Shown here: positions 27,246 through 47,451 of the stretch, one piece after another
Layout of the letters: every line of letters starts with the position of its first letter
Numbering within the stretch: position 1 is the stretch's first letter
NCBI GenBank assembly: GCA_022709695.1
Contig: JAKLII010000009.1
Location: 62,001-126,000, forward strand
Reading direction: 5' to 3'
Length of the DNA: 64,000 bases
DNA from: Bacteroidota bacterium
GTDB lineage: Bacteria; Bacteroidota; Bacteroidia; Bacteroidales; SKPS01
Position numbers and translations under genes: made by a program
Notes under the pieces: generated by a model
Told to the model about the DNA's origin: nothing
What the model saw: only the letters and a program-made list of their open reading frames with translations
Database searches by the model: none

Positions 27246-27271
27246 AGGGTTTTATACCACAATACCCAGAG

Positions 27272-27308
27272 AGAGGGCGTCCCAGAAGAGTCGTCCTCTT
27301 TTTTTTAT
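27272..27308 (+). terminator. Intrinsic terminator after the five-paralog run
   Basis: AGAGGGCG (27272-27279) pairs with CGTCCTCT (27292-27299), 8 bp with one wobble and a 12-nt loop, followed by a run of nine T residues. Confidence 0.85.
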
Positions 27309-27378
27309 CAGATCATCTGAAAATCTGAGCAAAAGCCTCCGTTTTGATATAACTTTGAAGATTGAAAATCTGACCGCC

Positions 27379-29100: not shown

Positions 29101-29231
29101 TTATTAATTCCTTGTAGGCCCAATGCGCGTTTTTCAGGCCGACTGACACCAGTGGTATTTTTTTCTGACGAGAGAAGGTTTTGGTAAATATGGGATTATC
29201 TTTAGGCGATTTTTCAAAAAAAGATCATCCT

Positions 29232-31244: not shown

Positions 31245-31302
31245 CCAGTTAAACTTCGTGGCTAAGAGAGAGTCTGAGTTATCAGCCAAATAAACAATCT
31301 GC

Positions 31303-33297
31303 ATGAAAAAAACTGTACCTGTTCTGGTGGTTCTTTTTTTTCTGATGTTTGCACCCAACATCTCCAGGGGATCCCATATTGCCTCCCTTGACCTTTCGCT
31401 TGTAAATATCGGCGGCAACGACTATCTGGTCACCTTTGTACTGTATCGCGACTGCAGCGGGATCAGTGCTCCACAGACCGTTCCCCTGAATTTTGCCTGC
31501 ACCGGAAATCCTGCTTATAGTTTTAATCTTTCCTCGGTTCCCTTGCTTCCCAACAGCGGACAGGAGGTTACCGTTGCATGCCCCGGCATGCCCACCCGGT
31601 GCAGCGGGGGTACCATCTACGGCATACAGGAATATATGTACCAGAGTCAGGTAACGCTGCCTGCGTGCAACAGCTGGGTCGTAAGTTATAGCACCTGCTG
31701 TCGCAATCCCTCCAATACAATTCAGGCTCCAATTTCCACAAGTGCCTATATCGAGGCAAGGCTCAACAACCTGGATGCTCCGGGGGCCAGCGCCCCAACC
31801 ATGACAACGATTCCAACCCTGTTGTTGTGCAACGGAAAGCTGAACTGCCAGAACCCCGGTGCGGTGGATAAAGACGGGGATTCCTTATCGTTCAAACTGG
31901 TCACCCCATTCAACTCCAGCTCCACAACCTATGTTACCTACATCCCACCCTATACACCCACCCAGCCGTTGCCCTCCAATCCACCGGTTACCCTGGATCC
32001 GCTGACGGGTGAGCTGTGTGTTACTCCCAGCATGAATATAGTGGCTCCCATTGCCATCAAGGTGGAAAAATGGCGCACCATCAACGGTACGCCCACGCAG
32101 ATTGGCACTACCTACCGCGACATGCAGGTGAACGTATACAACTGTACTTCTGAGATACCTGTATTATCAGGTATGGATACCACGCTCAGTGCAGGATACA
32201 ATCCGGGAAACACCTTGTTCTCCAAGACGATATGTGCCGGACAGCCCTTCTCTATGGCGGTTTGGGGAAACGATGCCGACACATTTAACGCGGCAAACAG
32301 CGGAAATCCGGAAAAATTCGCCATCTTCTGGAATCAGGCCATCCAGGGAGCCGGTTTCAACGCCATACATCAGGGAACAGACTCTGCCTATGCACTATTC
32401 AACTGGACACCAACACCATTGCACATACGGCAGCAGCCATGGTGCTTTGTGGCCACCGTTCGGGATTATTCCTGCCCCTACAATCTCACACGCCATTACT
32501 CCTATTGCTTTAAAGTGGAAGGAATCGCCGTAGATGCAGGGCCGGATAAGTCAGGGTGCATTGGGGATGTGATAAACTTTCAGGCCACCACCCCTACCGC
32601 TGGAGTGGTTTATCAGTGGGCTGTAGATGGGGTGCCGGCAGGGCCATATCAGGCCTCAAATGTCTTTGCCCTCAACACCCAGGGAATGACAACGGGCAGC
32701 CATACCATCAGCGTTACGGTGAACAATGCTGCCATGAACCTTGCATGTCCCGGTGTGGATCTGGTAGTCCTGAGCCTCCATCCGGTACCACAACCTTACC
32801 TTGGACCCGATACCGCTATTCTGCCAGGCAACACCATCCTGCTGGATGCCGGAACCGGCTATACCAATTACCTTTGGTCAAACGGGCAAACCACTCAAAC
32901 GGTTGCCATCGATTCTACTGCAACCGGCATGGGGATAAAAACCGTTTGGGTGCTGGTGGCCGATCTCAATGGTTGCTCAGGCTCAGACACCATCCTGATC
33001 CATTTCACCCAGAATCCCGGGATGGAAGAGTGGAAGAAATCTATCACAGTTCAGGTTTCACCTAACCCCGCCGGTGCCTATGCCTTGCTTAGCCTGCAGG
33101 GCAATCAGACCAGTGCGGAACAGGTGGAAATCATTTCGGTTGACGGAAAGTCAATCGTTCAGCAGCAGGATGCAAAAACAGAGATCCAGCCTGTAATCAG
33201 ACTGGATCTCAGAGATTTACCCGATGGTATCTATCTGGTCAGGGTTACCCTGCAGGATGGATCAGTTGGTACTACCCGTCTGATCATCAGCAGATAG
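31303..33297 (+). CDS. T9SS-secreted protein with YRDC-type N-terminal domain, paralog 8
   Basis: 664 aa; signal peptide MKKTVPVLVVLFFLMFAPNISRG. The N-terminal 400 residues begin SHIASLDLSLVNIGGNDYLVTFVLYRDCSG, a module found in Bacteroidota surface and gliding-associated proteins, with paired cysteines (YSTCCRNPSNTI). Only the C-terminal part is shared with the upstream genes: LGPDTAILPGNTILLDAGTGY and a T9SS type A domain (VSPNPAGAYALL). It converges on the peroxiredoxin gene 10 nt away, with no evident terminator between. Confidence 0.8.
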   Translation: MKKTVPVLVVLFFLMFAPNISRGSHIASLDLSLVNIGGNDYLVTFVLYRDCSGISAPQTVPLNFACTGNPAYSFNLSSVPLLPNSGQEVTVACPGMPTRCSGGTIYGIQEYMYQSQVTLPACNSWVVSYSTCCRNPSNTIQAPISTSAYIEARLNNLDAPGASAPTMTTIPTLLLCNGKLNCQNPGAVDKDGDSLSFKLVTPFNSSSTTYVTYIPPYTPTQPLPSNPPVTLDPLTGELCVTPSMNIVAPIAIKVEKWRTINGTPTQIGTTYRDMQVNVYNCTSEIPVLSGMDTTLSAGYNPGNTLFSKTICAGQPFSMAVWGNDADTFNAANSGNPEKFAIFWNQAIQGAGFNAIHQGTDSAYALFNWTPTPLHIRQQPWCFVATVRDYSCPYNLTRHYSYCFKVEGIAVDAGPDKSGCIGDVINFQATTPTAGVVYQWAVDGVPAGPYQASNVFALNTQGMTTGSHTISVTVNNAAMNLACPGVDLVVLSLHPVPQPYLGPDTAILPGNTILLDAGTGYTNYLWSNGQTTQTVAIDSTATGMGIKTVWVLVADLNGCSGSDTILIHFTQNPGMEEWKKSITVQVSPNPAGAYALLSLQGNQTSAEQVEIISVDGKSIVQQQDAKTEIQPVIRLDLRDLPDGIYLVRVTLQDGSVGTTRLIISR

Positions 33298-33307
33298 AAC
33301 GATCCGG

Positions 33308-33939
33308 TCAGTGCTTGCTGAGGTAATCAGCAACCCCGTCTGCATCGGCTTTCATGGCGTCGTCGCCCTGGTGCCAGTCGGCCGGGCAAACTTCACCATG
33401 CTCCTCGAAGTGCTGCAGGGCATCCACCATGCGCAGCACTTCATCCACACTGCGACCCAGCGGCAGGTCATTGACAACCTGATGCCTTACAATCCCATCC
33501 TTATCGATCAGGAATAAACCCCGGTATGCCACCGGAGCTCCCTTGAATTCGCTAACTCCATCATCGTTGTAGCCATATTCTCCAGCCAGCACATCATAAT
33601 TTTCGGAGATGGTTTTCGACAGGTCGGACACAATCGGGAACTTCACCCCCTTGATGCCGCCCTGGTTCAGTTCGGTATTCAGCCATGCCCAGTGCGAAAA
33701 CTTGGAATCGACTGAACAACCCACCACCGCTACATTCCGTTTTTCAAACTCGTGAATCTTCTTCTGGAAGGCCAGAATCTCCGTCGGACATACAAAGGTG
33801 AAATCCAGCGGATAAAAGAAGAATACCACATGCTGTTTTCCAAGATACTGATCAAGGAAAAGTTCTCCACAAACTCCCCTCCGTTTACAACAGCCTCAGC
33901 CTTAAATGCCGGGGCCTTTTTTCCTACCAATACTGACAT
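33308..33939 (-). pseudogene. 2-Cys peroxiredoxin (AhpC/Prx1 type) with a frameshift
   Basis: From ATG 33939 the frame reads MSVLVGKKAPAFKAEAVVNGGEFVENFSL and then goes out of register near 33855. In the next frame it continues DQYLGKQHVVFFFYPLDFTFVCPTEIL to the stop at 33308. Joined, this is a 210-aa peroxiredoxin with peroxidatic Cys in FTFVCPTE and resolving Cys in EVCPADWHQG. One base is missing (TTTTCC-TTGAT instead of TTTTCCCTTGAT). Everything else is intact, so a sequencing error is as likely as a real mutation. It would reduce hydroperoxides in the cytoplasm. Confidence 0.88.
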
Positions 33940-34077
33940 AATGTTTAGTTGTTTAGTTGTTTATTCGTTTAGTTGTTTATTGGTTTAAAGTCTGATACCT
34001 CAATAAAAAGTAACAGTTTTGGCCAAAAAATGTTTGCCTGAGTATGAAGTAAACTAGCGATGCAGGAGCAGTCTTTT

Positions 34078-34234: not shown

Positions 34235-34342
34235 CACTCACCTCACCCCCAACCCCTCTCCTAAAGGAGAGGGGAGTAACACCCTGAATCACAATAATTT
34301 CCCCTTCTCCTTGAGGAGAAGGGGACAGGGGATGAGGTGCCT
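34235..34342. repeat. Nested inverted repeat with two hairpins
   Basis: Two hairpins, CCCCTCTCC-TAAA-GGAGAGGGG and CCCCTTCTCCTTGAGGAGAAGGGG, lie between complementary arms CACCTCACCCCCAACCCC and GGGGACAGGGGATGAGGTG. It resembles widespread CCCTCACCCC-type intergenic repeats; it could fold as a cloverleaf or act as a terminator. Confidence 0.8.
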
Positions 34343-34541: not shown

Positions 34542-35249
34542 TTACAGGAAATTCTCATTCAGGAACTTCTGGAACAATTCACGGTACCCTTCACTCACAG
34601 GGATGGCAGCTTTGCCGAATATGATCTGGGACCGTTCCACCAGGTCCACATGCTGAAGGTTTACAATAAAAGAGCGGTGCACCCGCATGAAAGTGGCAGC
34701 CGGAAGCCTGGATTCAAGTGCTTTCAGGGTACTGAGCGACAATACCGGTTTTGATTCATGCTTCAGGTAAATCTTCACATAATCCTTCAAACCTTCAACG
34801 TACAGTATATCATCAAACCTGATCCGCCGGATCTTGTATTCTGATTTAATAAACAGGAACTGCCTGTCGGCCGAAATATTTACCGATCTACTTTCCAGCT
34901 CTCTGATTTTCAACGCCTTATTGGCTGCTTTCAAAAACTCTTCGTAGCTGAAGGGCTTCAGCAGATAATCCACGGCATCGAGCCTGAAACCTTCCACAGC
35001 GTAGCGGTCTGAAGCCGTGGTAAAAATACACTTCACCTCTGCAGCCAGATGCCGGGCGAATTCGGTACCGCTCTGATCGGGCATCATCACATCCAGAAAA
35101 ATCAGGTCAACCGGTTCATGCTGTAAAAATTCCGCTGCGCTGAGGGGATTGTCGAAACTCCCTTTCCATTCGAGGAACGGGGTTTTCCGGATATACCCCG
35201 TAATGAGCTCAAGGGCAAGGGGTTCATCGTCGATAGCAATGGCAATCAT
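34542..35249 (-). CDS. LytTR-family response regulator
   Basis: 235 aa. The receiver domain has acidic pocket DD at residues 8-9, phosphoacceptor Asp in LIFLDVMMP and conserved Lys in DYLLKPF. The C-terminal LytTR DNA-binding domain contains FIKSEYKIRRIRFDDILYVEGLKDYVKIYL and RVHRSFIVNLQHV. Its start overlaps the kinase stop by 4 nt (ATGA type), so the two are translationally coupled. It is the last gene of the long minus-strand run and likely regulates surface or envelope genes; targets unknown. Confidence 0.93.
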   Translation of the reverse strand: MIAIAIDDEPLALELITGYIRKTPFLEWKGSFDNPLSAAEFLQHEPVDLIFLDVMMPDQSGTEFARHLAAEVKCIFTTASDRYAVEGFRLDAVDYLLKPFSYEEFLKAANKALKIRELESRSVNISADRQFLFIKSEYKIRRIRFDDILYVEGLKDYVKIYLKHESKPVLSLSTLKALESRLPAATFMRVHRSFIVNLQHVDLVERSQIIFGKAAIPVSEGYRELFQKFLNENFL

Positions 35250-36379
35250 ATCGGGTGGTATTCGCTCAGATCAAGCATCAAAGTTACATTCCAGATCCCG
35301 TTTTCAGGTCCGGCTGAGAGCATAAATCTGCCGGGCAGCTCAAGCTGGAGCCTTTTACGTACATTTTCGAGACCGATCCCTTTTCTCTGAGCGCCATCTT
35401 CAGGCGCGGGCTCACCCGGATGAACACTGTTACGGCAAGAGAAACGGAGCTGTTTCTGATTGATTACCAGCAACGTTTCCACAAATGAAGGTCTTCTGTT
35501 GCTGATCCCATGCTTGAAGGCATTTTCCACGAAAGGCAGAAAAAGCAATGGTGGCACAGCGATGTGGGTGGTTTCATCAGGAAATGACCAGTTTACCTTC
35601 ACCTTCTGCGGGATTCTCAGGCGCATCAGCTGGATATACTGGTTCAAAAAGTCGATCTCGTCAGAGAGCTGCACATAAGGTCTGTCGGTTTCATATAGCA
35701 GGTACCGCATCATTTTCGAAAGCATCAGAATGGTCTCCCGTGCATCATCAGGACGGGTTTCAGTAAGTGCATAGATGCTGTTGAGTGTATTAAAGAAGAA
35801 ATGGGGGCTCACCTGATTCCTCAGGTACAACAGCTCTGATCTGATAAGTTCCTTTTCTGCATCTTTCCGTTTCTGCTCCTCTTGCCTTATTTTCCGGGTG
35901 TACCTCAACCCCAAACCCAACAATGAAACCATCAGGCCTGCCAGCACAAAGTTATAGTCGCCAAGGGCTTTGGGGGGTTTCGGCTTACTGCGGAAAAGGT
36001 CACGCATCAGGGGTGGTCGTCCCGGAGCGGCATAAGGCCCTTCGGTGAAAGGAGCTTCCGACCAGATCCTGTTTCTTTCCCCTTCCGGGTGCATCATCAT
36101 CTCCATCCCCTCCCTGAAAAACACTGCAGCGATCAACAGTGTAACGACAGAGGCAACCAGATAACACCACCGTGTCCTGCGTTGAAAAAACCAACGGGCA
36201 TACACAAGGTAGTTCAGGTAAAACAAGGCTGCATACAGAACCATGTGCAGCAGGATGTTTATCATGAATCCTCTGCCGGGACCGTATGAAATATACAGAA
36301 GGTACGCCGGAAACAGCGTGGCAACAGCCCAGACCACCAGGTGGATGCTTATGTTTCTGAGCTTTCTGTGTTTTTGCAT
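35246..36379 (-). CDS. LytS-type sensor histidine kinase
   Basis: 377 aa from ATG 36379 (MQKHRKLRNISIHLVVWAVATLFPAYLLY); the upstream open frame to 36487 runs into the previous gene and is not needed. Four TM helices form the sensor region with no large periplasmic domain except a short loop (about 105-145). A short coiled coil (RKIRQEEQKRKDAEKELIRSELLYLRNQ) precedes the His_kinase motif VSPHFFFNTLNSIYAL (phosphorylated His), and the ATPase has FLPFVENAFKHGIS as N-box. It pairs with the LytTR regulator. Confidence 0.92.
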   Translation of the reverse strand: MQKHRKLRNISIHLVVWAVATLFPAYLLYISYGPGRGFMINILLHMVLYAALFYLNYLVYARWFFQRRTRWCYLVASVVTLLIAAVFFREGMEMMMHPEGERNRIWSEAPFTEGPYAAPGRPPLMRDLFRSKPKPPKALGDYNFVLAGLMVSLLGLGLRYTRKIRQEEQKRKDAEKELIRSELLYLRNQVSPHFFFNTLNSIYALTETRPDDARETILMLSKMMRYLLYETDRPYVQLSDEIDFLNQYIQLMRLRIPQKVKVNWSFPDETTHIAVPPLLFLPFVENAFKHGISNRRPSFVETLLVINQKQLRFSCRNSVHPGEPAPEDGAQRKGIGLENVRKRLQLELPGRFMLSAGPENGIWNVTLMLDLSEYHPI

Positions 36380-36422
36380 GAGGGATATGCTGAAGGAGTA
36401 TAGTGCCTGATGTGCGTGGTTT

Positions 36423-37103
36423 TTACCAGCGGGGAGCAAACGAATAGCCCACAAAACCCACATAATCAATTCCTGGTTCCGGTACATTCAACTCCTGCTG
36501 CCACATGAAACCCAGTTCGAATGCATGCACCTTACTGAGCCTGTATTCAAATCCGGCCCGACATCTGACCTTATCGGGATACGGCATCAGGCTGAAGGCG
36601 AGGGGGTAATAGATTTCACCGGCCAGAAAAGGGCGGATGGCGGAGGTGAATTTCCATTTTAATTCGGCTCCCGCTCTGAGGTAGTGATCGGCAGCAGGCT
36701 TGAGGTCATCCCAAAGCCAACCCTCCGATTGCTGCATGTAATGCAACCGGCCGGTAATGTCAACCCTGCTCATTTTGTAGCGGTATCGCACATCAGCATA
36801 GGCGCGGTTCCTGAATTCAAAGGTGCGGTCAAGCTGTTGGTTCAGGGTCATACGCATTCCACATCCGACCCGCCAGCGCTCTCCCAGCGACCTTTGCAAA
36901 CCGGCTTCTGCAATGAAAGCCCCTGCCTCAGTCAGATTTTCATGCAACCGCAGCTCCGCCACAGCCTCAGCCGTCCAGAAAGGGTTAAGCCGGAACTCCC
37001 CTTCCGCCTCTGCCCAGAGCCCCGCATCACGGATTTGTGCAGGCAGCCTATCGGAAAAACATACTGCCGCTATGGCACACAGGATGAGTAATTTAGTTTT
37101 CAA
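36423..37103 (-). CDS. DUF2490 outer-membrane-like protein
   Basis: 226 aa with signal peptide (MKTKLLILCAIAAVCFSDRLPAQ). Repeated amphipathic strands such as WTAEAVAELRLHENL, FEFRNRAYADVRYRYKM and FRAGYEYRLSK-like segments fit a small beta-barrel, the fold suggested for DUF2490. It overlaps the upstream DUF4956 gene by 4 nt. Its role is unknown; the tight linkage to the VTC/DUF4956 pair suggests part of one envelope-associated process. Confidence 0.75.
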   Translation of the reverse strand: MKTKLLILCAIAAVCFSDRLPAQIRDAGLWAEAEGEFRLNPFWTAEAVAELRLHENLTEAGAFIAEAGLQRSLGERWRVGCGMRMTLNQQLDRTFEFRNRAYADVRYRYKMSRVDITGRLHYMQQSEGWLWDDLKPAADHYLRAGAELKWKFTSAIRPFLAGEIYYPLAFSLMPYPDKVRCRAGFEYRLSKVHAFELGFMWQQELNVPEPGIDYVGFVGYSFAPRW

Positions 37104-37915
37104 GGGGTCTTTCCGTTTTTCGGAGTGTAGATACCCCCCGGGGTTTCACGGTAAAATACGGTGATCCTTACCGAATCACGGAGGAAATTTACCCGGTCAA
37201 TCCTGAAACGGGTAACCTCCAGACCGGTTCGCTGCCTGAGATCCTGTAGTAATAAGGTATGATTCTCGGGGCGGATGAGCTCTGTATTGTCGTACTGGAT
37301 CGTTTTTGAACCTTCAGGATGGAAAATCAGGTTGGAATCAAGCACAAACGTCACAACAATCACAAAGAAATTCATAAATGCCAGCACCCCGTATTTCAGG
37401 TGCACGGCGTTGATCAGTCCGAGTGCAATGAAAATGAACAGATACGTCATGTCTTTCATGGAAATACTTCTGGTGCGGTACCTGAGCATCGAAAAAACGG
37501 CAAACAAACCGAAGGCCGCTCCCATCGAGATCTTTACTTCATTCAGCACATACGTCAGAATGAAAATCACCACATTGAACAGTACAAAGGTGAATATCTG
37601 CCCCGTGTTTCGGTTGCCCGGATAATAGACCAGCAGTATGAGGATCAGCACTGCCAGCATATTGATCCCCATGCTGATAAAAAAATGGAGGTTGATGTTC
37701 ACATCGTCTTCCAGCTTCACCTTCTTCTTGTCTTTGACCTTGTCCTTGTCCTTCGTCAGATCATCTGCCTGATCATCTGTGGTTAAATCGTCCAGTAACT
37801 CCGATGCCATGGAGGAGCCTCCGGAGTCCTGCGCCAATGCCAGTGAGGCCGGCGCCAGGGTGACCAAAGTGGCTATGATGGCCGTGTAAAAAATCAGTTT
37901 TCTGATAATGCCCAT
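37100..37915 (-). CDS. DUF4956 membrane protein
   Basis: 271 aa. A signal-like first helix is followed by a highly charged Asp/Lys stretch (about 40-75), four TM helices (MGINMLAVLILILLVYY, FTFVLFNVVIFILTYVL, AAFGLFAVFSMLRYR, TYLFIFIALGLINAVHL plus a fifth hydrophobic span) and a soluble C-terminal domain (about 195-271). DUF4956 proteins are frequent neighbours of VTC-domain proteins. The start overlaps the VTC gene by 22 nt and the end overlaps DUF2490 by 4 nt. The biochemical role is not known. Confidence 0.85.
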   Translation of the reverse strand: MGIIRKLIFYTAIIATLVTLAPASLALAQDSGGSSMASELLDDLTTDDQADDLTKDKDKVKDKKKVKLEDDVNINLHFFISMGINMLAVLILILLVYYPGNRNTGQIFTFVLFNVVIFILTYVLNEVKISMGAAFGLFAVFSMLRYRTRSISMKDMTYLFIFIALGLINAVHLKYGVLAFMNFFVIVVTFVLDSNLIFHPEGSKTIQYDNTELIRPENHTLLLQDLRQRTGLEVTRFRIDRVNFLRDSVRITVFYRETPGGIYTPKNGKTP

Positions 37916-38694
37916 AATCTGGTGGGTTTTTGATGAATGATTCGTTCGATCCTGCGGTTCCGGGGTATGAAGTTGTTTTTCTTCTGCTCAGGATACATCA
38001 GGTTTACGCCATAACAATACTTGCTGAATTTCAGCGGATGAATATGCAGGCGATGAAGTGCAGATACCATCAGGGAGATGCCGCTCCGCTCCTGCTTCAC
38101 TTCTGCAATGCAAACAGGTAACTCCCTTATTCCATTTTCGGGGGAAATATAGGTAAGACCGGCGTCGATGGTGATCCTTTCCGAACCTGTTTTTGATACC
38201 AGTGTAATCCTGTGGTACCAGATCTTCACTACCGGACGGAATTCTTCGGTGGACTTCAGCGGGACCCCGCTGATATCCGTAAAATGCGAAGCCGATAAGG
38301 CATCAGGGGCTTCCAGCAAACATGGTATCCGCTCCTTGATGGTTCTTCTGTGATTGTTCTTCCGCTTGAATTCGTAGTAAGCGGTGCTGGTATCCCTGTA
38401 ACTCCGTATCCTGATCTTAAACCGGTTTGCCCGACCGAAGTGATGCTGATAGTACAAACTGAAGTGTTCATCATCAAAATAGATGGTCTCATACTCCATC
38501 ACCCGCCTGCCTGCGATCTCCAGCACATCATACCCTTCCCCTGCACCTGTGAGCACTTCCCTGAGCAACGATTCGTGAAACACGTACTTCTGCTCAACCC
38601 TGTCCTGGAGTTTCACCCTGTCCGCCTCCTTCAGCGATACAGGAGCGAACCTGTTCAATATGTCTGTATGTGCCTTCAAAAAATTGATTATCAA
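37894..38694 (-). CDS. VTC-domain (polyphosphate polymerase-like, CYTH superfamily) protein
   Basis: 266 aa, matching the tunnel-fold VTC domain. The strands carry alternating basic and acidic residues: RVEQKYVF, EYETIYFDDEHFSLYYQHHFGRANRFKIRIRSY, YYEFKRK and, after a linker, ITIDAGLTY and AEVKQER. In yeast Vtc4 this tunnel makes polyphosphate from ATP; bacterial homologs are little characterised. It has no TM helix of its own and is likely held at the membrane by the DUF4956 partner encoded next to it. Overlaps the upstream gene by 4 nt. Confidence 0.87.
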   Translation of the reverse strand: MIINFLKAHTDILNRFAPVSLKEADRVKLQDRVEQKYVFHESLLREVLTGAGEGYDVLEIAGRRVMEYETIYFDDEHFSLYYQHHFGRANRFKIRIRSYRDTSTAYYEFKRKNNHRRTIKERIPCLLEAPDALSASHFTDISGVPLKSTEEFRPVVKIWYHRITLVSKTGSERITIDAGLTYISPENGIRELPVCIAEVKQERSGISLMVSALHRLHIHPLKFSKYCYGVNLMYPEQKKNNFIPRNRRIERIIHQKPTRLWALSEN

Positions 38695-39275
38695 AAATAT
38701 TCGTAGGTATATTTCTGTAGCTTAGTCGTCTCTCCTTTTTCGTTCGTGGTAACCTTCTGTACCGGGTGCTGCCGGGCATCGAAGGTTATCACAACTTTTT
38801 TCTTCAGCTTCCCTTTGCCATCAAAAACCTCTTCCTGAAATTTCTTCCCCTGGTTATTATAGGAATACCTGGTCCTGGTTTTTATCTCCCCCGCCCGGTT
38901 GTAATCACACTCCTCTGTTTTCTGCTTAAAGGAATTGTACTTGTACGTTTTCCTGTCATAGGAATCACCGGCCGGCTGGGATTTTTTCATCTCGTACCGT
39001 ATCACCTCCACCCTGTTGCCAAATTTGTCATAGGCAATATTCTCCTTTTCTGAGATAGTGCCATCCTTTTTATAATTGATGTATGAAAGACGGTTTCCGT
39101 GCCGGTCAAACTCCTCATATTCATCCTTATACGTAATATTTTTACCGTTATCCTCCTCCGTAACCCATTCCGTAACCGATTTCAGTTTACCCGAAGGTGC
39201 ATTTTCTCCCGGAACATCTGCCCCCAGCATGGGGATCAGGACGATTGCCACCCACCAAAGCATTTTTTTTCTCAT
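38691..39275 (-). CDS. Exported hypothetical protein with YD/MORN-like strand repeats
   Basis: 194 aa, signal peptide MRKKMLWWVAIVLIPMLGADVPG. The rest has repeated strands such as YEEFDRHGNRLSYINYKKDGTISE, YDKFGNRVEVIRY, YKYNSFKQKTEECDYNRAGEIKTRTRYSYNNQGKKFQEEVFDGKGKLKKK, the YxxxGxxxxxxxY pattern of RHS/YD-like or toxin-antitoxin MORN-like sheets. No enzyme motif. Within the VTC operon, 30 nt after the preceding gene. Confidence 0.7.
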   Translation of the reverse strand: MRKKMLWWVAIVLIPMLGADVPGENAPSGKLKSVTEWVTEEDNGKNITYKDEYEEFDRHGNRLSYINYKKDGTISEKENIAYDKFGNRVEVIRYEMKKSQPAGDSYDRKTYKYNSFKQKTEECDYNRAGEIKTRTRYSYNNQGKKFQEEVFDGKGKLKKKVVITFDARQHPVQKVTTNEKGETTKLQKYTYEYF

Positions 39276-39305
39276 ACCCGTAATAATATGACTATATGAT
39301 ATTTA

Positions 39306-39716
39306 TCAATTACTTTCAAAGATTACGATCTCTGGAACTTCCACCTGCTGCTTAGTGTCTGTAATCTCCACCTCCCTGATCACCGGTATCTTAGCCTGGG
39401 TCTGGAGGGTCGAATCTTTTGAATAGGCATATACCATGTATTTTCCGGGCCTGAGCCATGGAAATTCGAACCATCCGTCGTAGGTGGTGCGCACCCGGTC
39501 GCCCACAGATTTTTCATCACCATAGATTATAAACACATCCTCATCCTGTGCATAATACGTCTCTTCAAGTATATTGAATGAACTGTTGTAATGCTTCACC
39601 AGAACCCTTCCGCGGATGGTGGCAAGCCCCCCCTCCCCCTCAGGTTTTTCGCAGCCTGGTACGATTGTAAGTGTGGCCAGTATAAGAACAATTGCCGTTA
39701 AGTTCCTGTATTTCAT
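39306..39716 (-). CDS. Small lipoprotein with carboxypeptidase-regulatory-like (prealbumin) fold
   Basis: 136 aa; lipoprotein signal ends IVPGCEKPEG, so Cys22 would be acylated. The body (TIRGRVLVKHYNSS..., RVRTTYDGWFEFPWLRPGKYMVYAYSKDS) has the GxV...T..dG.F.f..l.pG.Y.v.a pattern of Ig-like/CarboxypepD_reg domains. Probably a periplasmic or outer-membrane structural protein. It lies between the CotH and YD-like genes with gaps of about 30 nt. Confidence 0.75.
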   Translation of the reverse strand: MKYRNLTAIVLILATLTIVPGCEKPEGEGGLATIRGRVLVKHYNSSFNILEETYYAQDEDVFIIYGDEKSVGDRVRTTYDGWFEFPWLRPGKYMVYAYSKDSTLQTQAKIPVIREVEITDTKQQVEVPEIVIFESN

Positions 39717-39746
39717 GGTTTTTTGATTTTTATATTGATGTGCCGT

Positions 39747-42071
39747 TTATTGTACGATGAGTTTTTGTTGAAATTTTGTTCCTGTATAGGTCACGGATAC
39801 AAGATAGGTACCTGCGTCCAGATGATCCAGGGGCAATTCTGCCAGTACGGTTTTGCCGATGCCATAATCGTTGCTCCGGATCATAAAAATATTTCTGCCG
39901 GTCAGGTCATGGATTTCCAGGGTGTAGGCTCCGCCATGCCCTGTCCACACCGCCACAGAATTGCCGGAAGCAGGGTTGGGGTATAGTCCCAGAGCAGTGG
40001 TATGGGTAATTCCGGTTTCGTTTCTTTTAGCAGGAGTGGCTTCCATAAGTGCAAAAGGGCCGTAGCCGTTCGGATACCTCCCCCATGTGAAATCGCCCGC
40101 CATCGCCGGAACCCGTGTGGAATCAACCACTTTACTCAGCAGCTTGTCAGAAAGCCCCATCCAGCCGGCCTGCACACCGTCGAGATAGGGAAACCTGACC
40201 TGAGGAGCGGTGGAGCCACCTGCCTTGACAACACCATAACCGCCCGGCGGAATCAGTCTCCGGCCCAGGGACAGGCCTCCGGCGCCGGTAATGTCATCGG
40301 AAAGATAGAGATTTTCGGTGGAGAGGGTGTCCATTGATTTGTTGAAAAGCTCAACCCAGGTGAACGCAAAAGTAGGTATTTCACCCGGCAGCATAACTGT
40401 TTCCCCCGCAATTTCATTGATCACCAGAGAATCTTTGCATGCCATCGGATAATAGACAAAGAAATCACGTTCGGCATGTTCCGGAAAGAATGTACCGGCA
40501 CTGTCGTTCTGGGCATAGAAGTAATATTTTATCACATTGCCTTCCACCAGCACCCCTGCGCCATAAAGGTCGTCGCCGGAAGGGCCATCGTGATGCAGTC
40601 CGTCGTCGTACATCCGGTATTTCCTGTACATCCCGAGGTCCGACTGCCTGGCAAACAACCAGACCTCCGCATCCTCCGGGACCCTGGCACATATCCATGC
40701 GGTATCACCAATAACCGGAGGCAGCGGATCGAACAGATCGCCAAAAAACTCTGGTTCACCGGCATAACCGGGAACCGTTGCCAGATAGCCCAGCCGGGCC
40801 TCCATCAGCTCTCTGATGCCCACATATTGGACCATCCCACCTGTTCCACCAACCGTGGTATCCAGATTCAGGAGGAAATCGCTGTAACTGTAAAACTTGT
40901 TGCTGTCAGCCTGCACAAAGGAATCTATCAGGGACCTGTAGGCATCCGCCACCTGCAGATACCTTCCTCCTCCGATCCAGTCCTGCATAATCGTACGCAG
41001 ATGGGCCATATACATCCTGCGCCAGGTGGAGTCTTTTAGCAATTGGGTGACCAGTGGCCTGGGGGTTATGCTGAAACTCAGGTGCTGCAACGGATCAAGG
41101 GTTTTCGTCTGTGGAATGGTTAATCCGTTGAAATGGGTGGAACCATCGGATGAGCGAAAGCTGCCGAACGACATATTCAGGTCCCAGGGGATGGTATTGA
41201 ACCTTCCGCTCCGGTCCATCGCCAGATAATAATTCTGGGCATACCCCAGGTAACTGTCGAGGTTCACCAGCGCATAATTGAAGGCATGCATCCAGAGGGT
41301 CCGGTCCACGTTCAGCACACTGGTGATGCTATCCGGGTAATTATTCATTATATTGATGAACCGCATGAGTTCTTCCCACCCGTATTCCGACTGGAGCTCG
41401 TAAAACGGGGCATAGGCCAGGCTGTCGGTGTTGCTAAGAAATGCCAGGTTGGCGTTTTGTCCGAAAGGAAAAACCAGTTTCTGCGGGCTCCCTTTGATCA
41501 GGATACCCTCTTCGTTTGCGAAGTGCTTCTCCATAAATACGTCATCAACTGACTCCACATGGGAGTAAACTCCGATCAGCGTGTCATTCACCCACAGGTT
41601 CGCAAACGCAGCTTCCGGGGCAGGCAGGTAATCGCGTGCAATGCGGTACGACAATGCTTCCCGTACAAAGGAGGGGTCGTGTATCACATTGCTCAGGCGC
41701 AACTTCTTGTATCCCTGATGGTTTTTATTGCTGATGAGGTAATCCAGCTCGATATTGAACGGATTCTTGATCTCCCCCTCGTTCCAGGAGCTGAATCCCT
41801 TGAACCGGATCCCTGCACCTGTATAGTGTTTGCCGTCAATGGTCACCTCGCCGGTAATCCGGGTGGTGTCGTTGCCTGCCTTCATCAGGCTGTCGAGGGT
41901 TTGCCGCCACCCGGGCTGGGGCAACCTGATCCTGATTTCATGCACCGTGGCAGGATCATACAATGGAGTCTGTGCCCATATACCAACCGTTATCCCAAAC
42001 AACAGGAGCATCAGCAGGGAAACCCTGGGGATGAATCTGATGCTGCACCGGTAGGATAACGTCGTCGGCAC
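39747..42071 (-). CDS. CotH kinase-family protein with T9SS sorting domain
   Basis: 774 aa with an N-terminal signal segment (LLMLLLFGITVGIWAQ, after about 20 residues; an inner Met start at M21 is possible). The CotH domain spans about 70-420: AGIRFKGFSSWNEGEIKNPFNIEL, KKLRLSNVIHDPSFVREALSYRIARD, GVYSHVESVDDVFMEKHF, and NTIPWDLNMSFGSF with the Asp-containing metal/ATP region. A lamin-tail-like domain follows (VINEIAG...FTWVELFNKS), then a T9SS type A domain (LYPNPASGNSVA). CotH proteins are atypical protein kinases; an extracellular one is inferred here. It starts 3 nt after the upstream stop. Confidence 0.88.
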   Translation of the reverse strand: MPTTLSYRCSIRFIPRVSLLMLLLFGITVGIWAQTPLYDPATVHEIRIRLPQPGWRQTLDSLMKAGNDTTRITGEVTIDGKHYTGAGIRFKGFSSWNEGEIKNPFNIELDYLISNKNHQGYKKLRLSNVIHDPSFVREALSYRIARDYLPAPEAAFANLWVNDTLIGVYSHVESVDDVFMEKHFANEEGILIKGSPQKLVFPFGQNANLAFLSNTDSLAYAPFYELQSEYGWEELMRFINIMNNYPDSITSVLNVDRTLWMHAFNYALVNLDSYLGYAQNYYLAMDRSGRFNTIPWDLNMSFGSFRSSDGSTHFNGLTIPQTKTLDPLQHLSFSITPRPLVTQLLKDSTWRRMYMAHLRTIMQDWIGGGRYLQVADAYRSLIDSFVQADSNKFYSYSDFLLNLDTTVGGTGGMVQYVGIRELMEARLGYLATVPGYAGEPEFFGDLFDPLPPVIGDTAWICARVPEDAEVWLFARQSDLGMYRKYRMYDDGLHHDGPSGDDLYGAGVLVEGNVIKYYFYAQNDSAGTFFPEHAERDFFVYYPMACKDSLVINEIAGETVMLPGEIPTFAFTWVELFNKSMDTLSTENLYLSDDITGAGGLSLGRRLIPPGGYGVVKAGGSTAPQVRFPYLDGVQAGWMGLSDKLLSKVVDSTRVPAMAGDFTWGRYPNGYGPFALMEATPAKRNETGITHTTALGLYPNPASGNSVAVWTGHGGAYTLEIHDLTGRNIFMIRSNDYGIGKTVLAELPLDHLDAGTYLVSVTYTGTKFQQKLIVQ

Positions 42072-42074
42072 CTC

Positions 42075-43316
42075 TTATTGGATGATGAGTTTCCCGGAAG
42101 AGGTATGAGCGTTGGTCGTCAGTTCCACCAGGTAAACACCCGGCTTGAGATTGCCGGTGTACAGGGTTTGCTGCTCCGGGCCCACTTCCTGTGCCAGCAT
42201 GAGTCTGCCGGCTGGGTCCGTGATCCTGCAGATGCCGCGGCTATGTCCGTCAAGCTGCAGGTACAGCTGCTCTTTTGCCGGATTCGGATAGAAAAAGGCT
42301 CCGGATACCGGCATTTCGGGTGCATCAACCGACAACTGGTTGAAACTGAACTTCGAAACGCCGCTCCCGGTAGCGATCCAGGCATCATTATTCAGGTCAA
42401 TTGCGATGCAATTGACAAATACCGAAACCAGTCCGTGCGCCGGAGTATAGGTGAACACCCCGGCCGGGTTTCCGTTGCTCATCATCGATATACCTCCCTC
42501 CTGAATGTAGTCGGCAAACATACCGACCCATATTCCGTAGATACCGGCAATCCGTACATCCCGGATGTATTCGTTCAGCAAGCCATCGACATGCAACAGG
42601 GTATCAATACATTGGTTCTGCGGATTCAGTTTTGCCAGGCCAAAGTAGGTACCCACATATTTGTATCCGTTTGAATCTATGGCCAGGCATGTGATGTTGT
42701 CGTCGGGCAGGGCGTTGTTGGCTGCGTTGATGGTGGTAAAAGTGGTACCATTGTACTTCACCAGCCCTCCCATCCAGGTTCCGAAATACAGATCGGCTGT
42801 GGGGAAAATGCTTTCTGCAATGCAGCTTACCATATTGGAAGGAAGCCCGCTGGTGGTGGTATAGTTAGTGAAGGTGCCGCCACTGTATTTCGACAATCCT
42901 CCGGTGGTGCCAATCCAAACATCGCCGTTGTCGGTTCCGTAGATACAGTTTACCATGTTGTCTACCAAACCGTTGGTGGTATTGAGGTTGGTCCATGTAG
43001 TGCCATTGAATACCGAAACGCCTACATCGGTGCCTGCCCAGATATATCCGTTGGTACTTACCGAGATGCATTTGATATAATTATCTGCCAGCCCGTTGCT
43101 GGTTGTCCACACCGTCCATGTGGTGCCGGCAAGCCTGGCAACCCCGGCCTGGGTGGCAAACCATTTGTCACCGTTGAAATCTACCGTAACACCCATTACA
43201 TTATCATCGGGCAGCCCGTCAGCAGTGGTGTAGTTGATAAAGGCGCTCTGCCCTGTTACACCCTGCAGAAATAAGCATGTAACTGCCAGTAAAATAATTC
43301 CTTTAAATCTTCTCAT
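42075..43316 (-). CDS. Two-component-regulator-propeller protein with T9SS sorting domain
   Basis: 413 aa; signal peptide MRRFKGIILLAVTCLFLQGVTGQ. At least six Reg_prop blades of the form NGLxDNxVxxIxxDxxGxxWxGTxxGvSxFxG, for example TTADGLPDDNVMGVTVDFNGDKWFAT and NGLVDNMVNCIYGTDNGDVWIGT. A T9SS type A domain (FYPNPAKEQLYL) ends the protein. It lacks the kinase that such propellers carry in hybrid two-component systems, so it is probably a secreted binding propeller. Likely operon with the CotH gene. Confidence 0.87.
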   Translation of the reverse strand: MRRFKGIILLAVTCLFLQGVTGQSAFINYTTADGLPDDNVMGVTVDFNGDKWFATQAGVARLAGTTWTVWTTSNGLADNYIKCISVSTNGYIWAGTDVGVSVFNGTTWTNLNTTNGLVDNMVNCIYGTDNGDVWIGTTGGLSKYSGGTFTNYTTTSGLPSNMVSCIAESIFPTADLYFGTWMGGLVKYNGTTFTTINAANNALPDDNITCLAIDSNGYKYVGTYFGLAKLNPQNQCIDTLLHVDGLLNEYIRDVRIAGIYGIWVGMFADYIQEGGISMMSNGNPAGVFTYTPAHGLVSVFVNCIAIDLNNDAWIATGSGVSKFSFNQLSVDAPEMPVSGAFFYPNPAKEQLYLQLDGHSRGICRITDPAGRLMLAQEVGPEQQTLYTGNLKPGVYLVELTTNAHTSSGKLIIQ

Positions 43317-43323: not shown

Positions 43324-45258
43324 CTATTTCTGGATCACGACCCGCAGCACCCAGGCATCAGGATCATCTGCATTGCGCATCAGATAAAGCCCCTCTGGGA
43401 AACCGGTAAGGTTGATGACCTGGTTCATGATTCGGCTTTGGGTTGTTCTTCCGTGTATATCGGTGATTAAAACAACAGATCCTTCCTTCCAGCCGGAAAT
43501 GTGCAAAATGCCGGAGCTTGGATTCGGATATACAAATGTACGTCCGTCATCTGAAATATCCACGATTCCGGTAAGTTCAAACCAGTAAACGGCCGACATT
43601 GCACTGCATCCGTTGGCATCAGTAATCTTTACCTGGTAGTTCCCGTTCTGGGCAGGAGTATAGGTCTGTCCTGTGGCGCCTGACACAGGGGCACCGTTCA
43701 GATACCAGAGGTACTGACTGGCGGCAGTCGAACTCAGGGAGTTTCCCACCTGTGAGATCACGGGTGCTGCCGGTAAAGGGTTCACGGTAACCGGCACGTA
43801 AGCGGTTGTAGTGTAGGTTCCGCTGGTAACCGTAACCGAGTAGGTGGTACTGACAGAAGGTGTCACCACAGGATTTTGCAGGGCAGAGGTGAAACCGGTA
43901 GGCGACGACGCCCAGGAATAGGTGTAATTACTTCCTCCGGAGGCTGTTACATTCAGCTGGGCAGAGGCTCCAGTGCAAATAACGTTGGGGGTTGCGGAGA
44001 CAGTGGCCGAAATACCGGTAAGGTAGGAAGCAGCATACCTGTAAGCCTTGGCAATGTTGCTGCCAGTGCTTTTTGACCATACCACGGTCTGGTTCGAGTC
44101 AATCTCATACAAATAGCCGGAATTGGGTATGCAGATGAATGTATTGCCGTTGGGCAACTGCTGCGAGCTGCCCAGATTCTGTGAAGCTGAACCCGAGTAG
44201 GTGTGCCGCCAGGTATAGGTGGATGGTGTGTACGCCGAACCCAGAGTGAGGGTATAATTGTATCCGTTGTACGGTGGCTGGATCACGTCGATGGCTGTCT
44301 TGTTGCCGGTACCCCCCTTGTTGTTAAAGGCTCCGAGGCAACCTCCCCTGGGATACCCCACGGGCACCCAGTGGGCATCATGCACCACATTGAATATCTT
44401 GGTGCCGGTAGCCCCGTAGGCTGCCGGATTACCCCACCGGTACAGAATATCACCCCCTTTGCCGGCATTGCCTCCGGTGTGTCCTGCTGCTTCTGCCGTC
44501 GTAGTGCTGTGGTCAATCACATAGATCTCGTTCAGGTTGTGCGAGCTGAAGGTAATCTGATCGAGGGTGGGGTTGTAATCCACCCCGTTCATGTGCATCC
44601 AGTCCTTCTGGATGTTGTAGTTGATATTGATAAGCTGTGGATTGTTGACAATGGAGGTCACGTAGTTGTCCTTGGTGGCATTGTAATTCTGGCACAGGTG
44701 CTCCCAAAGATGCCATTCCCATACGATGTTGCCGGTGGTGGCACCGGTGGGCTGCACCTCAATGATCTTCTCTGACCAGATAGTAGTATTGAGGGAGCAA
44801 CCGGCCTGCTGCGCCTGGGTGCCGGTTTTCGACTCGTAGGCGATCATCAGCACATTGCCGTTGGGCATGGGGCAGATGTCGTGGTGCAAAACGTAGGTCG
44901 TGGATGAGTGGGTGTAGGTCCAGGTAACGTTGCCGTTGTAATCAACCTTCTGCACCGATACACTCATGGCAGCAGCTCCGTTGAATGATGAATTGTTGCC
45001 GGTAAGGGACCTTACAATGGTTCCACCCGGCTCCATATAAATGCCGTAGGCTGTCTTCTGACTTGAGGTAAAAGTCCATGTTTTAAAGATATTTCCGGAC
45101 AAATCAAGCAGATACGCTTTATTAGAGTTCTGCGGTGAGTAGAGGGTATAGTCGCCCCAGGGAGCCTGGGCCTGAACCATCATTGCAAAACAACAGGCCC
45201 ACAGGGCCAGAAAGGCTGAAAAATTCCCGGGTTTTAGTCGCATATTGTTGTTTCTCAT
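43324..45258 (-). CDS. Arylsulfotransferase-like (ASST) propeller with Ig-like and T9SS domains
   Basis: 644 aa from ATG 45258; ATG 45243 also gives a good signal peptide (MRLKPGNFSAFLALWACCFAMMVQAQ). Residues 30-420 resemble the ASST/aryl-sulfate sulfotransferase propeller: YLLDLSGNIFKTWTF, VTWTYTHSSTTYVLHHDICPMPNGNVLMIAYE, WHLWEHLCQN, DWMHMNGVDYNPTLDQITFSSHNLNEIYVID. The HHD and HMN histidines fit the family's active-site area, but true sulfotransferase activity is uncertain. An Ig-like pair and T9SS type A domain (VYPNPSSGILHI) follow. Confidence 0.82.
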   Translation of the reverse strand: MRNNNMRLKPGNFSAFLALWACCFAMMVQAQAPWGDYTLYSPQNSNKAYLLDLSGNIFKTWTFTSSQKTAYGIYMEPGGTIVRSLTGNNSSFNGAAAMSVSVQKVDYNGNVTWTYTHSSTTYVLHHDICPMPNGNVLMIAYESKTGTQAQQAGCSLNTTIWSEKIIEVQPTGATTGNIVWEWHLWEHLCQNYNATKDNYVTSIVNNPQLININYNIQKDWMHMNGVDYNPTLDQITFSSHNLNEIYVIDHSTTTAEAAGHTGGNAGKGGDILYRWGNPAAYGATGTKIFNVVHDAHWVPVGYPRGGCLGAFNNKGGTGNKTAIDVIQPPYNGYNYTLTLGSAYTPSTYTWRHTYSGSASQNLGSSQQLPNGNTFICIPNSGYLYEIDSNQTVVWSKSTGSNIAKAYRYAASYLTGISATVSATPNVICTGASAQLNVTASGGSNYTYSWASSPTGFTSALQNPVVTPSVSTTYSVTVTSGTYTTTAYVPVTVNPLPAAPVISQVGNSLSSTAASQYLWYLNGAPVSGATGQTYTPAQNGNYQVKITDANGCSAMSAVYWFELTGIVDISDDGRTFVYPNPSSGILHISGWKEGSVVLITDIHGRTTQSRIMNQVINLTGFPEGLYLMRNADDPDAWVLRVVIQK

Positions 45259-45426
45259 AGTGTTGTGTCTTACAGGATTTAAGCGCAAGCTTATCAGTAA
45301 ATCACCTGTAAAACGTTTTAGTGCGCACAAAATTAACACAAAGGTAATATCACGGGCATTATGCAGATAAATACCCGCATTTAAGGGATGGTTCAGCGGA
45401 TTTTCCCGACGAAAGAACGGGATGCC

Positions 45427-46338
45427 TCAGGGCATCCGGATCAATCGGGCAGACAGTGTTAAGCCGCTGCTGGTAAATACTTTCACATGATAAACACCCC
45501 GGGAAAGAGCCCCAACGGGAATACTCATATCCTGAACCTCAGCCGGACTGAAGGAGGCTGCCAGCCTGCCATCGGCAGCAAAGATTTCAACCTTGCAGAC
45601 CGTTGTTTCTGCAGGGACCATCTGGAGGTTTACAATGTTTCCGGCAGAAGGGTTTGGATACAGCTTAATCTGAAGGCCGGAAACAGAGCCGGAGGTATTA
45701 ATTCCGATTGAGGAATCATACTCGATGATGGAGTAGATAGCGTTGGTGAGGGCGATATCATTCCATTCGCCGGCGATGCCCAGGGCGCCCGATCCACCCG
45801 GCCAGCCCCGCAGGCCTATGGCCGCTGCATCCTGATTGTTGGCGTAATCGTCAGGTTCATTTATCGTGCTGGCAGATTTTCCGCCCCAGTTCACGAAAGC
45901 ACCACCCACGGCAGCACCTCCGCCGGCTCCGGCAGCACCCTGTCCGGTCCAGAAGTTTGTTCCGTTGCCGTCGTTGTTGCCATCCCACAACCAGGTGCCT
46001 TCAGTAGCCTTGTCGGTGGCTCCGATCCAGATATAGGCCACACCACCCCCATCGGGAACGGTCACAAAGGTATTGGAAATCGCTGCTCCCACGGTAATGG
46101 CATGATATACCGAATCCTGTTCCTCCTGCGAGCCGATCTGCACGAGGTATCCTCCCCTCTCCACCGCACAGTCAGCGGCATCGTTCCAGCTTTTCAGCTC
46201 CTTCACAATTTCATACTTACGCCCCTGGTAATAGAAAGTGTAGATATTCAGGGAATCAGCACAGGGTTGCGCGGTCAGCAAAAGGGCCGGTGCAAGAAAT
46301 GCAACCAGCAGCATAGCGAGGGTAACGGTTCTCTTCAT
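45427..46338 (-). CDS. C-type lectin-like T9SS-secreted protein
   Basis: 303 aa from ATG 46338 (MKRTVTLAMLLVAFLAPALLLTAQ); the frame is open from 46416. A C-type-lectin-like domain spans about 30-215: YYQGRKYEIVKELKSWNDAADCAVERGGYLVQIGSQEEQDSV, YIWIGATDKATEGTWLWDG, NFWTG, and EPDDYANNQDAAAIG...GEWNDI. An unusual Gly/Ala-rich insertion (GQGAAGAGGGAAVGGAFVNWG) interrupts the carbohydrate-binding loop. A T9SS type A domain (LYPNPSAGNIVN) ends it. Probably a secreted glycan-binding protein. Confidence 0.87.
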   Translation of the reverse strand: MKRTVTLAMLLVAFLAPALLLTAQPCADSLNIYTFYYQGRKYEIVKELKSWNDAADCAVERGGYLVQIGSQEEQDSVYHAITVGAAISNTFVTVPDGGGVAYIWIGATDKATEGTWLWDGNNDGNGTNFWTGQGAAGAGGGAAVGGAFVNWGGKSASTINEPDDYANNQDAAAIGLRGWPGGSGALGIAGEWNDIALTNAIYSIIEYDSSIGINTSGSVSGLQIKLYPNPSAGNIVNLQMVPAETTVCKVEIFAADGRLAASFSPAEVQDMSIPVGALSRGVYHVKVFTSSGLTLSARLIRMP

Positions 46339-46459
46339 AGTGGTTAGAGGTTGGTTTACAGATACAAAGATAATGTATAAATGTTTAGGAAGTTTTTCGT
46401 TCTGTAGGGTCAACACATGCGTTGACCCGGCATGCGTTGACCCGGCATGGGTTGAGTTG

Positions 46460-47116
46460 TTACACCGGTTTTGCAGAGATATAAATCCTTTTCATCACGG
46501 TGCCGAAAAGAAGCGCATCGTACCACATGTAGTAAAAGCGCTGAGCATTGAACCATGTGATACCATCGGGATTGTCATCGTGATAATCGTACGGATCGGC
46601 AAAAATGATTACATCGTCCATGATATCTTCCTGATTCCGGATGTCGTAACCTACTACCAGTACCCAATGACCTCCCCAGTCGCTCCATTCCACAAGGGTT
46701 GGAATACCGTTTTTCAGGTTCTCCTGAAGCATTTCAAGAGATCCTTCCTGGTGCCATGTGGCCTCAAAGCCATTGTTGCTAAGCCAGTTTGCCATTTGCT
46801 CAGGGCGGGTTCCCGCAATGGTGCTCGTTCCCATTTCTGATGCAATCGTCATTTCATCTCCCTTCCTTCCGTAATATGACAACAAGGTAACGACTGCTGC
46901 AGGGCCACATGTATATTCAGTGGTTTGCAGGCAGGGAATCACGTCAAGGAAGGTAAGCCCCTTTACCGGCACTGGGGGCCTGATGCTGGTCACATAATAC
47001 CGGATCCTTTCCTGAATGGCCGGTTTGTGATCGTCATCCGTTTTCTGGCATCCTGCAAAAATGATCAGGGAAATGCCCAAAATAAACCTTAGGCTGAATG
47101 GAGGAAATGATTTCAT
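46460..47116 (-). CDS. C39-like peptidase family lipoprotein
   Basis: 218 aa from ATG 47116 (MKSFPPFSLRFILGISLIIFAGC), where Cys23 forms a good lipobox; the frame is open from 47209. The papain-like fold shows Cys70 in QTTEYTCGPAAVVTLL, His150 in GGHWVLVVGYD and Asp174 in FADPYDY, a full catalytic triad of the C39/C70-like group. Probably a periplasm- or surface-located cysteine peptidase. It stands alone with no transporter next to it, so not an obvious bacteriocin processing enzyme. Confidence 0.83.
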   Translation of the reverse strand: MKSFPPFSLRFILGISLIIFAGCQKTDDDHKPAIQERIRYYVTSIRPPVPVKGLTFLDVIPCLQTTEYTCGPAAVVTLLSYYGRKGDEMTIASEMGTSTIAGTRPEQMANWLSNNGFEATWHQEGSLEMLQENLKNGIPTLVEWSDWGGHWVLVVGYDIRNQEDIMDDVIIFADPYDYHDDNPDGITWFNAQRFYYMWYDALLFGTVMKRIYISAKPV

Positions 47117-47451
47117 AGTTGCCGGATTGGATTTAGATACCTGTATATGTTGCTTTATATCCCGACAAATCAGCATACAACAGAACAGCCTGTATGTCCG
47201 GATACCCATTTTTCATATTCAGGGTATCAAATGTAGGAAGGTTTGCGATGCATTGTATCAACCGATGCCCAAAATTTGTCTGCAGGAAATGATCTGCCAA
47301 AATTTTTCCAACCCACAAAGTGGGTTGAATAACCTTATGCCAGTAAGACAGTCAGATCCTGACCAGGAACATCGTCCTTCGGCAACACAAGCCACGCTGG
47401 AATAAAGCACCGCAGCAGCGGCAGATAGGGATCCATCCATCGTTGGTCTTT
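47117..47451. other. Repeat-bearing spacer
   Basis: Contains a partial copy of the accessory leader repeat (TCAAATGTA at 47227-47235 with ensuing GGTTTG), a hairpin CAACCCAC-AAA-GTGGGTTG (47309-47327) followed by AATAACCTTATGCC, and a decayed REP-like GCACCGCAGCAGCGGC (about 47408-47423). No gene was seen. Confidence 0.65.

Follow-up and report, generated by a model that had tools for sequence, protein, structure and literature searches.

What does a VTC-domain protein do beside a DUF4956 membrane protein and an extracellular CotH-type kinase? The CotH-VTC-DUF4956 trio recurs unexplained in bacteria and archaea, neither DUF4956 nor DUF2490 has an assigned function, and the statement of the initial annotation that VTC, DUF4956 and CotH co-occur without a defined function remains correct. 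Here the question is raised by a minus-strand operon in a 64,000-nucleotide stretch of a Bacteroidota genome (contig JAKLII010000009.1, positions 62,001 to 126,000; hereafter the window). The operon comprises ten genes and is conserved in Bacteroidota: a gene for an arylsulfotransferase-like protein (ASST) stands first and is followed by those for a Reg_prop propeller (RegP), CotH, a 136-aa lipoprotein (g136), a 194-aa repeat protein (g194), VTC, DUF4956, DUF2490 and a LytS-LytTR pair. The pattern now suggests a function for the core pair VTC-DUF4956, and our tentative preference, held with somewhat less than even confidence, is a trans-envelope system that makes and exports an anionic chain, most likely polyphosphate, and is coupled to surface phosphorylation.

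In such a system the cytosolic VTC protein would polymerise phosphate from a nucleotide, as its conserved catalytic residues suggest, and DUF4956, translationally coupled to VTC, would carry the growing chain over the inner membrane. The outlet would be the DUF2490 barrel, for which other lineages would substitute a phosphate-selective porin or a HlyD/MacA-like adaptor, the latter either alone or together with a TolC-type channel; this role is proposed because conduits are repeatedly replaced at one place and because the lumen of the barrel is rich in arginine. CotH and the Reg_prop and ASST propellers, exported by the type IX secretion system (T9SS), together with the lipoprotein and the repeat protein may act on or organise the surface product, while LytS-LytTR would tune expression in some lineages. 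What has been shown comprises gene content and order, conservation, catalytic residues, secretion tails and the predicted barrel fold; what we infer is the synthesis and nature of the product, its export direction, the donor and substrate of CotH and the regulation. If the proposal is true, bacteria own a dedicated route of polyphosphate synthesis and export unrelated to PPK1, which would also bear on the source of ATP for CotH, posed as an open question (PMC7821199).

Gene order and catalytic residues of the VTC-DUF4956 pair

The DUF4956 loci were gathered from named genome contigs and from the Bacteroidales, the order of the window's genome, and their open reading frames (ORFs) were called and labelled with iterated profiles, resulting in 125 deduplicated loci (numbered with L below). 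As many contigs end inside the locus the counts are lower bounds, and as the loci were selected through DUF4956 they are silent on DUF4956-free loci. Encoded in one directon with DUF4956 were VTC (110 loci), DUF2490 (80), g194 (51), g136 (48), CotH (33), LytTR (19), LytS and ASST (17 each), and Reg_prop (16). Short overlaps of VTC with DUF4956 are frequent, and DUF2490 is the immediate next gene after DUF4956 in 78 of the 103 loci with a visible next gene. According to the shared directons and the position of DUF2490, the arrangement is not due to chance.

The whole cassette ASST-RegP-CotH-g136-g194-VTC-DUF4956-DUF2490 is present in L037, L040, L041, L045, L048, and L139, and LytS-LytTR follows it in three of these (L040, L045, and L139); the position of ASST is conserved in L037, L040, L041, L048, L139, and others, and the nearest relative is a Lentimicrobiaceae genome (L032). 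Synteny being strongly conserved across the 125 loci, the lack of synteny that the initial annotation had named as evidence against its proposal is not what was found. That proposal, in which polyphosphate or phosphoryl transfer is part of an envelope process, is the best-supported reading, with further evidence now from the intact catalytic residues, the anion-porin-like barrel, the swapped conduits and the phosphate-transport neighbours. The LytS-LytTR regulator and the Reg_prop propeller recur often as accessories (about 16-19 of the 125 loci) but do not belong to the core.

The association of VTC, DUF4956 and CotH also holds. In 198 Bacteroidales genomes DUF4956 was found in 107, CotH in 125, and PPK1 in 128; DUF4956 and CotH occurred together in 89, DUF4956 alone in 18, CotH alone in 36, and neither in 55 (odds ratio 7.6, p 2e-10), while DUF4956 and PPK1 showed no association (odds ratio 1.08), both figures being uncorrected for phylogeny and genome size. 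Of 14 control genomes, Bacteroides ihuae, Corynebacterium glutamicum, and Methanosarcina acetivorans were matched by both DUF4956 and VTC and the others by neither, and CotH matched the last two of these and Bacillus subtilis; the search of phage records for DUF4956 gave no match. In Deinococcus taeanensis the gene order is CotH-VTC-DUF4956.

The VTC protein of the window matches the full-length Pfam domain PF09359 (103.8 bits against a cut-off of 23, profile positions 2-235 of 235). In 139 sequences of both main types no exception occurs at K36, R91, K110, K120, R162, D177, K200, and K225, and only one or two sequences deviate at each of K93, R95, R97, E108, R173, and E198; the numbering in alignments A1-A4 is one below that of the full proteins, as the window sequence stands there without its start codon. 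R95 (138 of 139 sequences) and R97 (137 of 139) align, in a weak pairwise match, with R264 and R266 of Vtc4, which are required for polyphosphate synthesis (PMC8749416). Otherwise the protein resembles solved VTC proteins only faintly in sequence, so the link to VTC enzymes rests on the Pfam match together with the pattern of invariant residues, and judged by these alignments the protein keeps the catalytic residues of Vtc4, among them the ATP-binding arginines and other basic residues of the tunnel. As in the eukaryotic VTC complex, where Vtc4 is joined by membrane subunits, there is a VTC domain of the triphosphate tunnel metalloenzyme (TTM) fold with ATP-binding arginines and a suspected membrane partner; in contrast, the window protein has no SPX domain (only VTC was found by Pfam), a search of this genome for the eukaryotic-type membrane domain DUF202 gave nothing, the position of the membrane subunit is filled by DUF4956, and an outer-membrane conduit is added. 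Replacement of PPK1 by VTC was considered and rejected, since DUF4956 and PPK1 are independent and the genome carries PPK1; DUF4956 is thus not a simple stand-in for PPK1.

Predicted barrel, replaced conduits and the inner-membrane protein

The DUF2490 protein is predicted to be an outer-membrane beta-barrel. Its model is closest to NanC (Z 16.1; 175 residues at 3.1 A), followed by KdgM (Z 15.6) and, only a little lower, PcoB and NalP, and a published survey places the family among the putative porins as TC 1.B.81, with no function assigned (PMC4827864). When strand parity is assigned from mean hydropathy, the inward residues of the family comprise on average 17.1 basic against 11.9 acidic ones, and its conserved arginines face inward. 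Similar size (in the model) and inward arginines are thus shared with the acidic-oligosaccharide porins NanC and KdgM; DUF2490 of the window had no Pfam match besides DUF2490 at E 0.1, and its likeness to the KdgM family is one of fold only. The DUF4956-DUF2490 genes are annotated in Bacteroides thetaiotaomicron as BT3498-BT3499 (PMC10434189), and as this species is genetically tractable the idea can be tested directly.

Other lineages have other conduits in this place. In a second DUF4956 subfamily (type II), 17 of 47 further loci have the gene of a HlyD/MacA-type periplasmic adaptor immediately upstream of the VTC-DUF4956 pair (L156-L158, L160-L165, L193, L197, L202, L208, L216-L218, and L220); the adaptor was identified by a MacA match (E 6e-9 with the family profile) and NCBIfam adaptor models, all under curated cut-offs. 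An outer membrane efflux protein (OEP, TolC-type) follows directly downstream in two of them, L157 and L197, and type II loci can also carry CotH, ASST, Reg_prop, or LytS-LytTR (L156, L157, L162, and L163). Compared with HlyD/MacA-TolC tripartite exporters the adaptor, and twice the OEP, are alike, whereas in the type II directon VTC-DUF4956 stands where the pump would be, a gene for one of the ABC, RND, or MFS kind not having been recognised. On a Pseudoalteromonas plasmid, where a lamin-tail protein and a fragment of VTC come first, a Porin_O_P phosphate-selective porin (E 2.4e-47) begins 1 nt after DUF4956. Three unrelated kinds of conduit therefore adjoin VTC-DUF4956, which we regard as the strongest sign that an anionic substance is moved through the envelope by this pair, and the adaptor and TolC-type channel suggest export.

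These neighbours could also be read in the opposite direction, namely as uptake and storage of phosphate or polyphosphate, where the outer-membrane channel would admit phosphate or short polyphosphate, VTC would store phosphate, and DUF4956 would be its inner-membrane partner. Besides Porin_O_P, this is favoured by a Nitratireductor plasmid on which DUF4956-VTC is followed by a PHO4 phosphate transporter and then by a phytase-like protein (on an Aminobacter plasmid, also alphaproteobacterial, by the phytase-like protein alone), and by the pair of Deinococcus QL22, which has genes for an acid phosphatase and a phosphonate ABC transporter in its vicinity. On the other hand, HlyD/MacA-like adaptors and TolC-type channels are export parts, secreted T9SS kinases are unexpected for a storage system, and an association with PPK1 is missing; we consider uptake and storage unlikely, yet still a credible rival.

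Another explanation confines the product to the periplasm: VTC-DUF4956 would supply polyphosphate there only, as a phosphodonor or chaperone, and the barrel would be an unrelated pore of the same regulon. Methanoperedens archaea (L065-L067), which have no Gram-negative outer membrane, carry VTC-DUF4956, and DUF2490 was not found nearby in these three loci, as such a periplasmic or membrane-associated pool would allow. Its probability is small, however, since DUF2490 is so regularly the immediate next gene and other conduits occupy its place elsewhere.

In the model of DUF4956 the N-terminal helix is signal-like and leads into a disordered region; about five membrane helices follow, and the C-terminal domain is of the alpha/beta kind. 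The most conserved stretch, LRYRT..I.MKDMTYLF, forms a basic loop which by the positive-inside rule is probably cytosolic. As for relatives, 6 of 10 type II DUF4956 proteins match Pfam MgtC at E up to 0.01 (the best 8.9e-5 and 23.3 bits, below the cut-off of 31.4), the window DUF4956 gave no match to MgtC at E 0.1, and the profile comparison of DUF4956 with MgtC was poor, in part through several wrongly chosen MgtC reading frames; the resemblance may serve as a lead only.

The secreted kinase and the proposed surface product

CotH of the window matches Spore coat protein H (PDB 5jd9) at E 2.1e-25 with the family profile. Its D272 and D297, conserved in 56 and 57 of 63 homologues, align with the NFDG and PWD motifs of 5jd9 and so with D228 and D251 of B. 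subtilis, the spacing of 23 in 5jd9 being equal to 251-228. In B. subtilis CotH D228 is needed for activity and D251A is inactive (PMC7821199). Both kinase aspartates are kept, and kinase activity is predicted. Unlike the Bacillus spore-coat kinase, with which it shares a homologous kinase domain and both catalytic aspartates, this CotH is T9SS-exported to the surface, belongs to a non-sporulating type of bacterium, and is tied to VTC-DUF4956. The T9SS type A sorting domain exceeds the curated cut-off of 23 bits in CotH, RegP (39.5 bits), and ASST (26 bits), and a T9SS-like tail motif occurs in 44 of the 63 CotH homologues.

An exported protein family of about 350-415 aa, unnamed by Pfam and NCBIfam, was found near DUF4956 (L101, L133, L142, L155, L081, L137, and L223-L226), directly downstream of it in L101, L133, L142, and L155. 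Its conserved NTD...N...DFD motifs align with the catalytic residues of CotH; the first hhalign comparison of the family (357-aa) with CotH was not significant, and after sequences were added the profile comparison gave E 7.3e-7 with a probability of 92% (reversed control 0.35). These data suggest a divergent CotH-like kinase. Secreted-looking metallophosphoesterases are also encoded downstream of DUF4956 in some loci (L133 6985-8637, L081 3315-4733), one of them fused to ankyrin repeats.

A kinase and a sulfotransferase-like protein at the surface could instead modify a glycan: CotH and ASST would transfer phosphoryl or sulfuryl groups to an exopolysaccharide or other surface polymer, with VTC-DUF4956 as an accessory and a product other than free polyphosphate. 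The trio of CotH, poly-phosphate polymerase, and DUF4956 adjoins Pel genes in streptococci, clostridia, and bifidobacteria (PMC7112168), and a Clostridium perfringens locus has VTC, CotH, and a DUF4956-sized membrane protein with a glycosyltransferase alongside (PMC2879425). Cthe_2159 carbohydrate-binding proteins lie in or near the DUF4956 directon (L099 7440-8996, L092 6925-8751, and related loci; the L099 cluster spans 16 loci), and the DUF2490 model resembles acidic-sugar porins. Against this, PelG was not found in the window's genome, where no relative attains the family cut-off, conserved glycosyltransferases were not seen in the directons (some unlabelled neighbours being left unscanned), and the alphaproteobacterial copies are accompanied by the phosphate transporter and the phytase-like protein without glycan genes. 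Glycan modification is therefore rather unlikely, though it too is still a credible rival.

The identity of the operon as a Pel accessory cassette was rejected as PelG is absent from the genome. In comparison with the Gram-positive pelDEADAFG accessory genes (PMC7112168), in which CotH, poly-phosphate polymerase, and DUF4956 are likewise contiguous, PelG is lacking here and DUF2490, the lipoprotein, the repeat protein, Reg_prop, ASST, the T9SS tails, and LytS-LytTR are extra. Rejected likewise was the twisted-stalk cluster of Zetaproteobacteria, which includes a CotH protein; the VTC and DUF terms are missing from its paper.

The export proposal has a bolder form, in which VTC-DUF4956 is a hitherto unrecognised, polymerase-driven secretion engine with interchangeable conduits, giving extracellular polyphosphate as the phosphodonor or substrate of CotH-fold kinases at the surface; in this full form it is doubtful. 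Several points weigh against polyphosphate export in general. PHO4 transporters and phosphate porins usually are uptake proteins, and the Pseudoalteromonas porin case is a single record with a VTC fragment. The window's genome also encodes PPK1 (profile search), and its own DUF2490 has a balanced inward charge, 17 basic against 17 acidic residues. Comparison of the DUF4956 model with solved folds (Foldseek, VIA-align) gave no convincing match and no confident transporter, the rows listed being common arrangements, and a known transporter fold was rejected for it; a channel role would be an analogy. The product could be another anionic polymer, and CotH would need a phosphate donor outside the cell. 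Finally, in L223-L226 DUF4956 is found without VTC and beside the CotH-like family instead. If the 350-415 aa proteins are kinases, DUF4956 would be tied to CotH-fold proteins even without VTC, an outcome that speaks for the kinase link and against VTC as the motor in every case.

Layout of the operon and other features of the window

The nine closely packed minus-strand ORFs at 34542-43316, with the coordinates, gaps, overlaps, and families given in the initial annotation, were all confirmed by ORF calls, Pfam, and NCBIfam (Table 1); the tenth member, ASST, which ends 7 nt upstream of the Reg_prop gene, had been overlooked. The junctions within the nine-gene run are 3-44 nt gaps or 4-22 nt overlaps provided that LytS starts at ATG 36378 (44-nt gap), since a start at 36487 would result in a 65-nt overlap. 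The VTC/DUF4956 overlap measures 22 nt, and 4-nt overlaps occur at three other junctions. Two terminator-like hairpins flank the ten-gene run, while comparable patterns turn up in shuffled sequence too. The Bacteroidota-type promoter pattern (TTTG-N-TAnnTTTG) had three matches in the window and zero in the operon, not above chance.

Table 1. Genes of the operon and flanking hairpins in window coordinates
Feature	Position	Strand	Evidence and remarks
ASST: arylsulfotransferase-like beta-propeller, T9SS type A tail	43324..45339	-	Pfam PF05935 E 4.5e-20, Por_Secre_tail; likely start ATG 45257
RegP: Reg_prop beta-propeller, signal peptide and T9SS tail	42075..43316	-	Pfam, NCBIfam, synteny
CotH-type secreted kinase, 774 aa, T9SS type A tail	39747..42071	-	PF08757 E 3.7e-38; TIGR04183 40.2 bits, cut-off 23
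g136: small lipoprotein, lipobox PGC, conserved CxKxxGxGG motif	39306..39716	-	weak Pfam fn3_3/CarboxypepD_reg
g194: small exported protein, YD/RHS-like repeats	38691..39275	-	sequence; 51/125 loci
VTC-domain polyphosphate-polymerase-like protein, TTM fold, TTG start	37894..38694	-	PF09359 E 1.4e-29
DUF4956: inner-membrane protein	37100..37915	-	PF16316 E 5.8e-49; AlphaFold2 pLDDT 82.6
DUF2490: predicted outer-membrane beta-barrel, TTG start	36423..37103	-	PF10677 E 8e-16; AlphaFold2 pLDDT 91.8
LytS-type sensor histidine kinase	35246..36378 (ORF extendable to 36487)	-	PF06580 E 3.2e-24
LytTR response regulator	34542..35249	-	PF04397 and PF00072
Terminator-like hairpin upstream of ASST	45420..45437	-	pattern match only
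Terminator-like hairpin downstream of LytTR, 11 pairs	34300..34325	-	pattern match only

In the smaller members of the operon the residues C22, G27, G29, and G30 of g136 are conserved in 58 sequences, and a transthyretin-like fold is suspected for this protein. The phospho-acceptor H229 of LytS (numbered from the 36487 start) and the receiver D53 of LytTR are both conserved, as befits a two-component pair.

Preceding the operon on the same strand are genes for a C-type lectin with a T9SS tail and a C39-like peptidase (45427-46416 and 46460-47209, minus), with a hairpin between them and ASST. On its other side an AhpC-type peroxiredoxin (33308-33940, minus) has its N-terminal part apparently in another frame, with a break near 33862 due to a frameshift or an assembly error. 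Further away, eight tandem paralogous proteins of 581-687 aa (17513-33297, plus) are 29-57% identical in BLASTP pieces and have T9SS tails in all three that were scanned, and a DUF805 RNA (RF03081, 70.2 bits; 54048-54113, minus) lies directly upstream of a 63-aa ORF (53856-54047) matching the GldL N-terminal domain.

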